Shown: positions 12,500 to 58,769 of the stretch, piece after piece | Layout of the letters: each line of letters begins with the position of its first letter | How positions within the stretch are numbered: position 1 is the first letter of the stretch | NCBI RefSeq assembly: GCF_020595125.1 | Contig: NZ_JACNMS010000002.1 | Location: 744,001 to 808,000, forward strand | Origin: Jeotgalibacillus aurantiacus | GTDB taxonomy: Bacteria > Bacillota > Bacilli > Bacillales > Jeotgalibacillaceae | Length of the DNA: 64,000 bases | Reading direction: 5' to 3' | The notes under the pieces: generated by a model | Databases searched by the model: none | Told to the model about the DNA's origin: nothing | Seen by the model: the letters and a program-made list of their open reading frames with translations, nothing else | Program-made: the position numbers and the translations under genes

Positions 12500-12612
12500 G
12501 GGCCGTAGCGCATCCGAAGACTCCTGTGGCGGAAAGGGTCAGGTGAAACCGATGTGCAGAGCACAGCGGGTTCACCGCCCGGCCACGGAAAGCGTAGGAT
12601 GCGCTACGGCCC
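12500..12612 (+). repeat. Palindromic element copy B (subfamily II, no insert)
   Basis: This is the cleanest simple copy. The end arms GGGCCGTAGCGCATCC (12500-12515) and GGATGCGCTACGGCCC (12597-12612) are perfectly complementary. The core is ACTCCTGTGGCGGAAAGGGT, then a hairpin GGTGAAACC...GGGTTCACC topped by TGTGC/GCACA, then CCCGGCCACGGAAAGCG. It starts after an A run, ends with CGATTTATTT, and lies between convergent genes, 3 nt from the EAL gene's stop codon. Confidence 0.9.
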
Positions 12613-12615
12613 GAT

Positions 12616-14469
12616 TTATTTCCTTCTCGTAATCGAATAAAACGAAGCCCGCTTATAATTATCGATCCAGCCATTAATCTCATCCGGCGGCAAAGGCCTG
12701 CTGAGCAGATACCCCTGAAACCTCTTACAGCCAAGCTCGTTCAAAAGCGCCCACTGCTCTATTGTTTCCAACCCTTCAGCAATCACGCTAATATCAAGGT
12801 TTTCCGCAAGATCAATGATTGTTTTCACGATGGCCATGCTTTTATGGTTCGTCGTTAACCGCCTTATAAACTCTTTATCAATCTTAATTTCTTTTATCGG
12901 ATATTCCTGTAAATACACAAAAGCAGAAAACCCTGTGCCAAAATCATCAACTGATAGCTGAATGCCCATGTCATCAAACAGCTTCAACCGTTCAATCACA
13001 AGGTCCTCTTCCTCCATTGCCACTGATTCTGTTATTTCCAGACAGAGTCTTTCAGGCGGAATATGATATTGCAACAGCCCTTCATTAATAATGGCAGGAA
13101 GCCTTTGATGGAGAAACTGCCTCGGCGATATATTAATCGACATCGTCACCTGATCCATACCGTTATCATGGAATTTTTTCAACTCTTTAATCGACTCTTT
13201 TATGACCCACTCACCAAGCGGAATGATAAATCCTGTTGATTCCGCCAGAGGGATAAATACTCCGGGTGGCACCAGACCAATCTCAGGGTGATTCCACCGG
13301 ATCAGTGATTCAAATCCCGTTATCTCCCCTTCTTCCCCTTCAACCTGAGGCTGAAAATATAAAATAAACTGGTTCAGATCAAGCCCTTTTCTTAAATCCA
13401 TTTCAATGGCAAAATGATCCTTGCTTGATTCCTTCATCTCTTCCGTAAACCATGTCACAGAGCTCCTGGCCGATCTCATCTTTCCTCTGTTAAGGGCAAT
13501 CTGAGCACTCTGCAGAAGTTCTTTTGCCGGGTTTTCACCATGAAAGTGGCGGCTGACACCTGCGCTGAATGTTGCGGTCACATCATAGCCGGTTACCAGA
13601 AACGGCGGACTCATCAAAAAAAGAATATTTTTCAGCCTGTTTTCCACGTCTGCTTCATCAAGAAACAGCGCAAAATGATCATGGTCTGCCCGTGCAACTG
13701 TTTCGTTGCTTTTTAACACCCTGTTAAAACGGCCTGCAATTTCTTTAATAATCTGATCTCCCCCATCGTATCCCAACGCATCAATAATTTGATCCACCTG
13801 ATCCACCTGGAGATAACATAAGACAGGGTTTTCGGCACGATGAATCGATCCGTTTACTTCGCTGTAAAACAAATTCAAATTTGGCAGTCCAGTCAGCTGA
13901 TCATAGTAGGCGAGATATTCCAGCTTTTTCTCCATTTCCTGCTGCTGCAGACTGTCCAGAAGAAAACCGACAAGATCTGAAAACGTCCCGGCAAGCGATT
14001 CCTCAAGCCTGGTCCAGCTGCGGGCTATAGAGGATTCACAGCAAACCACACCCGCCACACCATTGGCTAAAACGATTGGAGCATCAATCATGGACTGTAT
14101 ATTGCCAGCCTTAGAGAAATAATCAGGATACAATTCCTTCACGCGCTCATCGTTCGATACATCTGAAATCGCGATCACTCTAGTTCCTTTCAAAAGAGTA
14201 AAATAGGCAGGAAACTGATGCTTGTGCAATCGCTCTCCACTCGTATGCATCCCATTATGCTGCTGATATACATTAAGGGCAGTTAACGAAGGCTGCTCAT
14301 CATCAAACAGCCAGACCCCGATCCGCTCACACTGAATCATTTCAGCAATGCCTTCACATAGCTGTTCGATCGTATGCTGTAATTCAACGGAAGAAATTTT
14401 CTTTGATTTTGCAAGCTGGAATAGCTTTTGCTGCTGAAGACTAAAGGATGAATTCGAATCTTTGGACAT
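12616..14469 (-). CDS. GAF-GGDEF-EAL protein with degenerate GGDEF
   Basis: This 617-residue cytosolic protein has a GAF-like sensory region (about 15-170), a GGDEF-type domain (about 185-340) and a C-terminal EAL phosphodiesterase domain (about 355-600). The cyclase signature reads ADHDHF in place of GGDEF, so cyclic-di-GMP synthesis is very unlikely. The EAL domain keeps the catalytic set: E of FESLIRW, N of NISPRQF, E of LEITES, DD of VDDFGTG, K of IKIDKEF, E of IAEGLE and Q of FQGYLLSRPLP. It should therefore hydrolyse cyclic-di-GMP. ATG 14469 is chosen with AAGGTG upstream; a GTG nine bases earlier overlaps that site. Confidence 0.9.
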   Translation of the reverse strand: MSKDSNSSFSLQQQKLFQLAKSKKISSVELQHTIEQLCEGIAEMIQCERIGVWLFDDEQPSLTALNVYQQHNGMHTSGERLHKHQFPAYFTLLKGTRVIAISDVSNDERVKELYPDYFSKAGNIQSMIDAPIVLANGVAGVVCCESSIARSWTRLEESLAGTFSDLVGFLLDSLQQQEMEKKLEYLAYYDQLTGLPNLNLFYSEVNGSIHRAENPVLCYLQVDQVDQIIDALGYDGGDQIIKEIAGRFNRVLKSNETVARADHDHFALFLDEADVENRLKNILFLMSPPFLVTGYDVTATFSAGVSRHFHGENPAKELLQSAQIALNRGKMRSARSSVTWFTEEMKESSKDHFAIEMDLRKGLDLNQFILYFQPQVEGEEGEITGFESLIRWNHPEIGLVPPGVFIPLAESTGFIIPLGEWVIKESIKELKKFHDNGMDQVTMSINISPRQFLHQRLPAIINEGLLQYHIPPERLCLEITESVAMEEEDLVIERLKLFDDMGIQLSVDDFGTGFSAFVYLQEYPIKEIKIDKEFIRRLTTNHKSMAIVKTIIDLAENLDISVIAEGLETIEQWALLNELGCKRFQGYLLSRPLPPDEINGWIDNYKRASFYSITRRK

Positions 14470-15542: not shown

Positions 15543-15544
15543 GC

Positions 15545-15625
15545 TCAAGCCGCTTTTGCCGTAGTTGAATTAAGAAAGTTTTTAAACCACCACTTCTCAA
15601 AGTGGGTGTTCGCAAAAGCCTTCAT
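15545..15625 (-). CDS. Candidate 26-residue small protein with ideal ribosome site
   Basis: A minus-strand frame of 26 codons begins at an ATG 6 nt after a perfect AAGGAGG. It stops immediately before a strong terminator with a T-rich tail, so it has the layout of a complete gene. The peptide is aromatic and basic at the front (MKAFANTHFEKWWFKNFL) and ends STTAKAA. It has no secretion signal or cysteine, and part of its message can fold around CACTTTGAGAAGTGG. I do not recognise it; it may be a regulatory or amphipathic peptide. Confidence 0.55.
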   Translation of the reverse strand: MKAFANTHFEKWWFKNFLNSTTAKAA

Positions 15626-15834
15626 GTGCGTCCTCCTTGTCAAGATGACAGAGGCATAACAATCCCGCTTTTATTTAAAACTCCCTGTTACAGCTCAAAG
15701 GTTAAAACTTACTTAGAACTTACGCACAATGCAGCCTGAATTGAATCATAGCGCAGTTTACTCAAAAGTTCAATTGTTAAGCCTGCATAACAATATGTTA
15801 TGATACTTGAGACAAATTATGTACTGGAGTTTAA

Positions 15835-29175: not shown

Positions 29176-29287
29176 GGGCCGGATTCCCCCTTCGCTTTCC
29201 ACGGCCGGGCGGTGAACCCCTTGTGCTTCGCACAATGGTTTCACCTGTCCCTTCACTGCCGTAGGAGTCTTCGGGGTAATCCGGCCC
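29176..29287 (-). repeat. Palindromic element copy C (subfamily II, no insert)
   Basis: The end arms GGGCCGGATTCCCCC (29176-29190) and GGGGTAATCCGGCCC (29273-29287) pair apart from one bulge. Read on the minus strand the core has ACTCCTACGGCAGTGAAGGG, a GGTGAAACC...GGGTTCACC hairpin and CCCGGCCGTGGAAAGCG. It lies between convergent cotZ and cotO and fills the rest of the 285-nt gap after the cotZ terminator. Confidence 0.87.
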
Positions 29288-29379
29288 TCTGAATATCAGT
29301 TACCTTTCAAAATTAAACGTCATGACAACTAAGACAAAACGCAACAAAAAGTTTTTTATAAAAAAAGTATCACAGCTGA

Positions 29380-38062: not shown

Positions 38063-38150
38063 AAAAATATACTCACAACCAAAAAATATCTTTTTTTCTT
38101 TATTTAAGAACTTTTTTATCTCATTTGTAAGACGGTTAACTACAATTCTA

Positions 38151-38413
38151 GGGGCGGTGTGATCCGTAGACTCCTATGGCGGAAAGGGTCAGGTGAAACC
38201 GAATGTGCGAAGCACAGGCGGGTTCACCGCCTGGCCTTAGAAAAGCGGAAGCGGGCGTTAAGGGACGTACAAACTGGACTGGCCCCGACGGAGATAAAGG
38301 AAACACAGCGAACGCAGTGAGCTGATGTTGACTTATCGGACGAGGGGACGGGAAGTTTGCTAGTCCCTGCCCGCATTAGCTAGACAATGGAAAGCGAAGG
38401 ATGACACCGGCCC
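38151..38413 (+). repeat. Palindromic element copy G (subfamily II with insert)
   Basis: The arms GGGGCGGTGTGATCC (38151-38165) and GGATGACACCGGCCC (38399-38413) pair with two mismatches. The core is ACTCCTATGGCGGAAAGGGT, then GGTGAAACC...GGGTTCACC with a TGTGCGAAGCACA tip. After AGAAAAGCGG comes an insert (about 38252-38389) starting GCGGGCGTTAAGGGACGTAC and ending TCCCTGCCCGC, and the core resumes at GGAAAGCG. The copy fills most of the 676-nt gap between yjbJ and yjbI. Confidence 0.88.
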
Positions 38414-38571
38414 GATTCTTCTGTTTATATTAAGCATCAACTACTCCAAAAACTTCTTATATATACACACCTGTCTGATTCTCCCAAAGCGAGTTATTTG
38501 AGAAAACAATCCCCGGTTGCTACAATATACTTACAATCGACAAGAAATCGAGCGTAAAGGGGTTATGTATC

Positions 38572-39830: not shown

Positions 39831-39948
39831 TACAATTAAAAGCTGGAGTATTGAAATTCATCTGCGATTCCATTATAAGATTCAATTTACATTTCACATT
39901 TAAAACATCATGATTAAAAGGGAAAAGATATAAATGTTTTTTTAAAAA

Positions 39949-40210
39949 GTGCCAGTTCATTCCGTAGACTCCTACGGCAGAGGAGCGACAGGTGAGACAG
40001 ATGTGCGGAGCACAGCTGGCTCACCGCGTGGCCATAGAAAAGCGGAGGCTGGCGTTTAGGGACGTACAAACTGGACCGGCCTCGACGAAGATAAAGGAAA
40101 CACGGTGAACGAAGTGAACCGATGTTGACTTATCGAACGAGAGGACGGGAAGTTTGCTAGTCCCTGCCCGCCAAAGCTAGACAATGGAAAGCGAAGGAAT
40201 GGCCTGGCAC
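39949..40210 (+). repeat. Palindromic element copy H (subfamily I with insert)
   Basis: The arms GTGCCAGTTCATTCC (39949-39963) and GGAATGGCCTGGCAC (40196-40210) pair with one wobble and one mismatch. The core is ACTCCTACGGCAGAGGAGCG and GGTGAGACAG...CTGGCTCACC with a TGTGCGGAGCACA tip. The insert runs from about 40044 to 40187 and differs from copy G at paired sites (GGT/ACC for AGC/GCT; CCTCG/CGAGAGG for CCCCG/CGAGGGG). It occupies the gap between spxH and a small membrane protein gene. Confidence 0.88.
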
Positions 40211-40243
40211 GATTTCTAAATTAAATAATCATGAAATAAAGCG

Positions 40244-40273
40244 AAAAGCCTTCATCAACAGATGAAGGCTTTT
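40244..40273. terminator. Terminator between spxH and the small membrane protein gene
   Basis: AAAAGCCTTCATC and GATGAAGGCTTTT pair perfectly around AACA. It is the first classical terminator after spxH, beyond the element copy. Confidence 0.88.
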
Positions 40274-40443
40274 CATTACGAACAAAGGGGATGGGAGAAA
40301 TTTTTCACGGTCAAACAAAGGGGTATATGTTTGCATGTGATCAATTTCACACGTCTAGCTTATCATGTATTTACAAGTGTGACAAGTCATTTAGCTGAAT
40401 AAATTTGTTTTCCTTTTCATACATTGAATTGGGAGGAACTGCG

Positions 40444-47827: not shown

Positions 47828-48088
47828 AAATAAAGTAACGGCAGTGATGAAGAATAGTACCTGTGAAAATGCTTAAGAGAGTCTGCGGCTGGTGAAAGCA
47901 GATGCATGGAAACAGCGAATGGACTTTTGAGCTCCGCGGTGAACCCCTTGTCGGGAATTAGCCTTAGGCGCGCCTCAGCGTTATGAGGAAATGAAGTGGC
48001 AGCATGACGCTGCAATCAAGGGTGGCACCGCGGAACAACCATTCGTCCCTTCCTATTTTTATAGGTTGGGATGGATGGTTTTTTATAT
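47828..48088 (+). promoter_or_regulatory. T-box leader for tRNA-Trp ahead of trpS
   Basis: This leader senses uncharged tRNA-Trp and lets trpS be read through when charging is low. Stem I begins around 47880 with the GGTGAAAGC loop, and the specifier loop shows TGG (47920-47922), the tryptophan codon. The T-box sequence AAGGGTGGCACCGCGG lies at 48018-48033, and its TGGC bulge fits the tRNA acceptor end. The terminator helix AACCATTCGTCCC...GGGATGGATGGTT with a T run ends at about 48085. Confidence 0.93.
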
Positions 48089-49454: not shown

Positions 49455-49512
49455 CGAGTGAGCTGATGTTGACTTATCGAAAGAGAGGACGGGAAGTTTG
49501 CTAGTCCTGCCA
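49455..49512 (+). repeat. Solitary fragment of the insert module
   Basis: The stretch GTGAGCTGATGTTGACTTAT, then CGAAAGAGAGGACGGGAAGTTTGC split here as GAGGACGGGAAG and TTTGCTAGTCCTGCC, is the right half of the module otherwise found inside copies G, H and M. No flanking element core is present on its left, though full copy L begins 43 nt later. Confidence 0.75.
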
Positions 49513-49554
49513 TGGAATATTAATTAAATCTAATATATTTTTGAAGCATTCAAA

Positions 49555-49666
49555 GGAGCTGGGACATCCGGAGACTCCTGCGGCAGAGAAGCGACAGGTG
49601 AGACAGATGTGCGCAGCACACCTGGCTCACCGCGCGGCCGCGGAAAGCGCAGGATGTCCCAGCTCC
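49555..49666 (+). repeat. Palindromic element copy L (subfamily I, no insert)
   Basis: The arms GGAGCTGGGACATCC (49555-49569) and GGATGTCCCAGCTCC (49652-49666) are perfectly complementary. The core is ACTCCTGCGGCAGAGAAGCG, GGTGAGACAG...CTGGCTCACC with a TGTGCGCAGCACA tip, and CGCGGCCGCGGAAAGCG. It lies in the 394-nt gap between the small membrane gene and appC, which also holds the insert fragment and the app terminator. Confidence 0.9.
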
Positions 49667-58270: not shown

Positions 58271-58475
58271 TTAGGTATTACTTTATCGATTCTATGTAGA
58301 TTTAGAGTGAACGCATAAAACATTTCAGAGGAGTTTTGCTCCTTATCTAAATGGATTCCTGCGAAAATCGGATAATACTAAATAGAATTTGGATTTTGCT
58401 ATTTCGACTGTTTCAATGATCAAAGTTTCGCATCAATTCTTCATTAAAAATACGATTACAGCATTTATAACAAGA

Positions 58476-58740
58476 GGACAGGACTCATCCGTAGACTCCT
58501 GCGGCAGAGAAGCGACAGGTGAGACAGCGTAGTGCGGAGCACTAGCTGGCTCACCGCGCGACCTTGGAAAAGTGGAGGTGGGCGTTTAGGGACGTACAAA
58601 CTGGACTGACCCCGACGGAGATAAAGGAAACACAGCGAACGCAGTGAGCTGATGTTGACTTATCGGACGAGGGGTCGGGAAGTTTGCTAGTCCCTGCCCG
58701 CCGCAGCTAGACAAAAGAAAGCGAAGGATGAGTCCTGTCC
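58476..58740 (+). repeat. Palindromic element copy M (subfamily I with insert)
   Basis: The arms GGACAGGACTCATCC (58476-58490) and GGATGAGTCCTGTCC (58726-58740) are perfectly complementary. The core is ACTCCTGCGGCAGAGAAGCG and GGTGAGACAG...CTGGCTCACC with a GTGCGGAGCAC tip. The insert of about 58572-58716 is closest to copy G's but has GACCCC/GGGGTC where G has GGCCCC/GGGGAC. It ends in CGGTTTTTAA. Between N and M about 200 nt shows nothing I can name. Confidence 0.9.
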
Positions 58741-58769
58741 GGTTTTTAATAAGATTTTATTACAAATAA

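Follow-up and report, generated by a model that had tools for sequence, protein, structure and literature searches.

The inserts carried by three palindromic elements of the window, a 64,000-nt stretch of the Jeotgalibacillus aurantiacus genome (G000), are copies of module A, an independent structured repeat of about 147 nt that is separate from its host palindrome (the core). Together with the homologous module B and the similarly built module C, it probably belongs to a Bacillaceae family of nonautonomous mobile hairpin repeats that are composite like pneumococcal BOX and site specific for the core, a reading that we hold with moderate confidence.

RESULTS

Position and boundaries of the inserts

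An earlier note on this DNA had described inserts of 125 to 140 nt at one point of the core in the copies at 38151, 39949, and 58476. All three were found there, but with its ends included the insert measures 147 nt, with about 150 nt added to the core. The flanking words named in that note were present as well, although their assignment had to be mended, GAAAAGCG being part of the insert and GAAAGCG part of the core. The following features were delimited in the window, to which the genome of the sister species (G004) was aligned.

38149 to 38415, plus strand: core palindrome that holds module A and has the outer arms GGGGCGGTGTGATCC / GGATGACACCGGCCC
38239 to 38385, plus strand: module A of the 38151 core, AGAAAAGCGGAAGC...TTAGCTAGAC; the orthologous G004 core is without module
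38386 to 38402, plus strand: right junction of the 38151 composite, with the core's AATGGAAAGCGAAGGAT directly after the module end
39946 to 40211, plus strand: core with module; G004 is without the entire composite
40036 to 40182, plus strand: module A of the CCTCG...CGAGAGG subtype, within the 39949 core
49457 to 49511, plus strand: stand-alone relic of the 3' half of module A, the fourth copy in the window; common to G004
49552 to 49664, plus strand: empty core; its G004 orthologue is filled at GGCC^GCGGAAAGCG by the module pair C-A
58474 to 58742, plus strand: core with module; the orthologous place in G004 holds a different core
58566 to 58712, plus strand: module A, variant with GACCCC/GGGGTC, within the 58476 core

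The gene for the RsaE/RoxS sRNA (40243 to 40350, minus strand) directly adjoins the 39949 composite. The window also contains a 6S RNA (15543 to 15740, minus strand) and a T-box leader (47835 to 48053, plus strand).

Fold and covariation of the module

The three full module copies are much more stably folded than shuffled sequence, with z scores of -6.2 to -7.0, and the core plus module reached -8.3. In a structure alignment of 56 diverse copies, the module is a rod composed of the helices GCGGGC/GCCCGC, GCGAC/GTCGC, AAACT/AGTTT, CTCC/GGAG, GATAA/TTATC, and AACAC-GG/CCG-A-TGTT, with a GGA/GGA internal loop close to the module ends. The pairings and compensatory differences previously noticed by eye were recovered (CAGC/GCTG versus CGGT/ACCG, CCCCG/CGAGGGG versus CCTCG/CGAGAGG, and GACCCC/GGGGTC at 58476). 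To provide a null for covariation, 100 structure-free alignments were simulated along the fitted tree, and a cutoff of E = 0.05 over all pairs was used. Five column pairs exceeded this null, all five of them inside the proposed helices, in keeping with the earlier claim that the module is structured. The paired columns contained 80 G-U and 29 A-C combinations, counts that ignore shared ancestry; these wobble counts point to the plus strand as the one kept folded and under selection to fold.

Modules A, B, and C are each a long imperfect hairpin of about 120 to 150 nt with conserved internal loops. The loops GATAAAGGAAACAC / GATGTTGACTTATC are near-invariant in modules A and B, and all three modules share the ends AGAAAAGC(GGA)GGC ... 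GCC(GGA)GCTGGACA. Searches with the Rfam 15 covariance models gave no credible match to the modules, either at the gathering threshold or at E ≤ 5.

Filled and empty cores in sister species

Comparison of G000 and G004 by stretches revealed nine orthologous cores that differ in being filled or empty, six carrying modules only in G000 and three only in G004. Orthologous cores hold zero, one, two, or mixed modules. The insertion point in cores was always GGCC^NNGGAAAGCG, so that the search for a common insertion point advised in the earlier note ended at a single site. Left and right GAAA(A)GCG words were consistently unlike when filled and empty cores were compared, and the cores displayed no clean target duplication.

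The bases NN at the insertion point give a direction to these differences. NN forms Watson-Crick pairs with its 5' partner (CCTNNGGC) in 48 of 54 empty cores, whereas filled cores keep the pairing in 8/48 (right NN) or 4/48 (left NN). As a simple deletion from one GAAA(A)GCG word to the other would not restore the lost pairs, the filled state is the derived one. Were the insert ancestral to the composite and the copies without it deletions, the direct words GAAAAGCG...GAAAGCG could have mediated the losses. However, the intact pairs of the empty cores argue against this, as does the fact that most core genera are without modules and most module genera without cores. Deletion from an ancestral composite was rejected for the compared loci on account of the NN pairs, and we regard it as highly improbable overall. 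The earlier note had considered that the insert either moved on its own or was lost repeatedly, and had named two findings that would speak against its proposal, an ancestral insert absent only by deletion and a lack of covariation; both were looked for, and neither was observed. The modules of the compared cores are gains rather than losses, as the NN pairs indicate. In G000 and G004, the module has entered cores repeatedly at the single site GGCC^NNGGAAAGCGNAGG, beside a word like the module's own left end.

Features of the host core

Among core copies (in the window, e.g., 12504 to 12606, 29176 to 29290, and 49552 to 49664, as well as in G000 and G004 stretches), the 84-nt interior is 93% alike and the 16-nt outer arms 61%. 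A copy's own arms pair 11.6/12, and arms swapped between copies 7.1/12; the outer arms look as if they were made or fixed at insertion. At orthologous places of G000 and G004, core interiors also occur in opposite orientation, sometimes with identical outer arms; such inverted interiors are found in G000 at C2:273784, C2:275568, and C1:554250 (63784 and 65568 of stretch C2a and 94250 of stretch C1). At G004:C20:105580 there is a small bare hairpin, GGGGTGGGACCACCCC, and at the corresponding place in G000, C2:851233 (107233 of stretch C2b), a full core. The bare hairpin may be either the preinsertion palindrome or the outcome of a deletion.

Distribution of the modules and their arrays

Blastn detected about 48 matches to the module in G000 and about 49 in G004, many of them outside cores, as single copies or in tandem arrays. 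The arrays mix modules A, B, and C, and their joints consist of the word AAGAAAAGCGGAGGC. Stand-alone complete inserts, for which the earlier note had recommended a search, were found outside cores and across genera. The motif GATAAAGGAAACAC..GATGTTGACTTATC is present in many Bacillaceae genera (among the matches listed, Siminovitchia, Neobacillus, Oceanobacillus, Pontibacillus, Halobacillus, and others), and 8 genomes in a sample of 399 from the class contain it; a search of viral contigs for the module motif gave no match. Over the same 61 genomes, modules occur in 21 and cores in 18, in largely different sets of genera with the exception of the window's own. In the sampled loci of five other genomes of this genus (G006 to G009 and G011), modules and cores are unjoined, and a few module/core pairs adjoin each other in other genera.

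At array loci of the sister species, the left-end word is constant and the module content has changed (A versus A-B-C, B-C versus A, or none versus one). End-word variants are uniform within one array, with the partner side changed to match, irrespective of module type (AGTGGAAGC/GCTGGAACT in locus L074 and AGTGAAGGT/ACCGGAACT in L065). In our reading, this uniformity stems from joints recombining with one another rather than from end words passed on together with their module.

Many module arrays have degenerate minirepeats of about 21 nt (CTTGGTCAC(A/T)TT.., TTTGACCACTCT..) beyond their right end (loci L023, L064, L071, and L075, and contig C10 of G004 after position 14256).

Possible spread of modules between cores and their genomic context

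On a tree of 83 modules, about seven switches between cores and arrays were counted, at least three of which are forced by well-supported branches, and 25 of the 26 modules of one clade lie in cores. This core-specific clade is in line with a process in which founding insertions were rare and modules then spread from core to core by homologous recombination or gene conversion via the shared core sequence, no dedicated enzyme being active now; as part of the same process, recombination at the repeated left-end word would lengthen and shorten the arrays. The identical ends of A and C modules in cores, often TT...AA, are also in its favor, as are the array ends, which at a given locus are homogenized over all three module types. 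However, the two bases to the left of the module vary widely in the 26-module clade (TT, AT, AC, AA, CT, AG, and TC), although its modules diverge by no more than a few percent. Simple copies of a single donor core would not be expected to vary in this way, and several separate entries into cores are needed. Gene conversion between cores is the main rival to site-specific mobility and may explain part of the spread; as the whole account, we see it as possible but not probable.

Modules are intergenic, with 2 of 100 overlapping a predicted ORF. Where an upstream gene points into the module (49 cases), the distance from its stop codon to the left end has quartiles of 2, 37, and 206 nt and is often a few nucleotides, and divergent gene pairs are underused (9/98 versus 57/342). 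Both this placement and the strand bias of the covariation would suit an RNA useful to the host, a folded 3' untranslated region element whose mobility would be incidental. Yet a position after stop codons is equally expected from tolerance of insertions, and module presence at the same locus varies between the sister species; we consider such a role unlikely.

Candidate movers

A transposase or reverse transcriptase gene with ends resembling the module, whose existence the earlier note had raised, was looked for, and none was found; nor did the two families searched, Y1 and reverse transcriptase, provide an autonomous element for the module. The reverse transcriptase domain PF00078 is absent from G004, G006, G008, and G009, all of which bear modules, a result that speaks against a retroelement or group II intron derivative; reverse transcriptase was rejected as the mover given its absence from G004.

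The RAYT-like (Y1) genes of the genus match NCBIfam NF047646, mostly just below its cutoff. By hand counts, the long RAYT-like form is present in 10 of 13 genomes with at least six module matches, versus 7 of 40 with none, which could fit movement of the module by RAYT transposases. However, RAYT is missing from genome G032 despite its 17 module matches, no module A, module C, or core was detected at E < 1 in the 1.5 kb around ten Y1 genes, and palindromes of other kinds flank several RAYT genes. RAYT was rejected as the mover on the basis of these genes without modules nearby and the other palindromes beside several of them, and we judge its involvement very doubtful. The palindromes in question belong to the RAYT genes themselves, such as GGGGACGGAG...CTCCGTCCCC in L409 and L403, with others in L401 and L407.

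DISCUSSION

The earlier note considered that a structured element parasitising another would be unusual. Structured repeats inside one another have precedents: the pneumococcal BOX, RUP, and SPRITE repeats are inserted into one another, and Streptococcus suis has BOX frames of two kinds (boxE/boxF) with common boxB modules (PMC3049150). BOX elements of Streptococcus pneumoniae and S. suis have the form boxA-boxB(n)-boxC, with a module number that differs between strains (PMC3049150). BOX is the closest known system in anatomy, a palindromic frame with zero to many independently folding internal modules, and the core likewise is a frame whose folded internal modules vary in number between relatives. 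In contrast to BOX, the module described here is also found in genera that do not have the frame, both by itself and in arrays of mixed A/B/C type, and comparison of the sister species reveals its fresh entry into single frames.

Other repeat classes are less similar. REP/REPIN sequences with their RAYTs are likewise intergenic palindromes, and this genus has RAYT-like genes, but the module is 147 nt long, has conserved internal loops, and was not found beside the RAYT genes. Like miniature inverted-repeat transposable elements (MITEs) such as bcr1, the module is short, noncoding, folded, dispersed, and polymorphic between relatives; unlike them, it shows no target duplication in cores and may lack a terminal inverted repeat matched to an insertion sequence. 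According to a paper cited in PMC2267715, bcr1 is specific to the Bacillus cereus group, and on that description it differs from module A, which occurs in many Bacillaceae beyond this group. Open-licence papers dealing with repeats in Bacillaceae and with the ERIC, MITE, and bcr families yielded no description of this module family, and the motif letters gave only two chance matches, in unrelated papers, in the PMC text searched. The family is apparently undescribed.

If the modules are mobile and site specific, as we favor, a candidate enzyme acting in trans would recognize the folded module, which would be inserted 5' of GAAA(A)GCG-like words. Each unit would then offer a new target at its left end, so that tandem arrays of mixed modules would arise, and recombination between array joints would homogenize the ends and change the copy number. 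A more specific proposal, which we regard as rather unlikely, is that the modules are mobilized as folded single strands, of DNA or RNA, by an unrecognized kind of enzyme targeting GAAA(A)GCG-like words, with mixed arrays growing by insertion beside each unit's own end word. If true, this would amount to an integron-like array of hairpins without genes.

The module family is widespread in Bacillaceae and strongly structured. In its association with the core, it provides a nested repeat in which the order of events is readable, the broken base pairs of the host hairpin marking the filled sites as derived. A defined substrate, a target word, and sister species with both empty and filled sites make the mover of small bacterial hairpin repeats testable.
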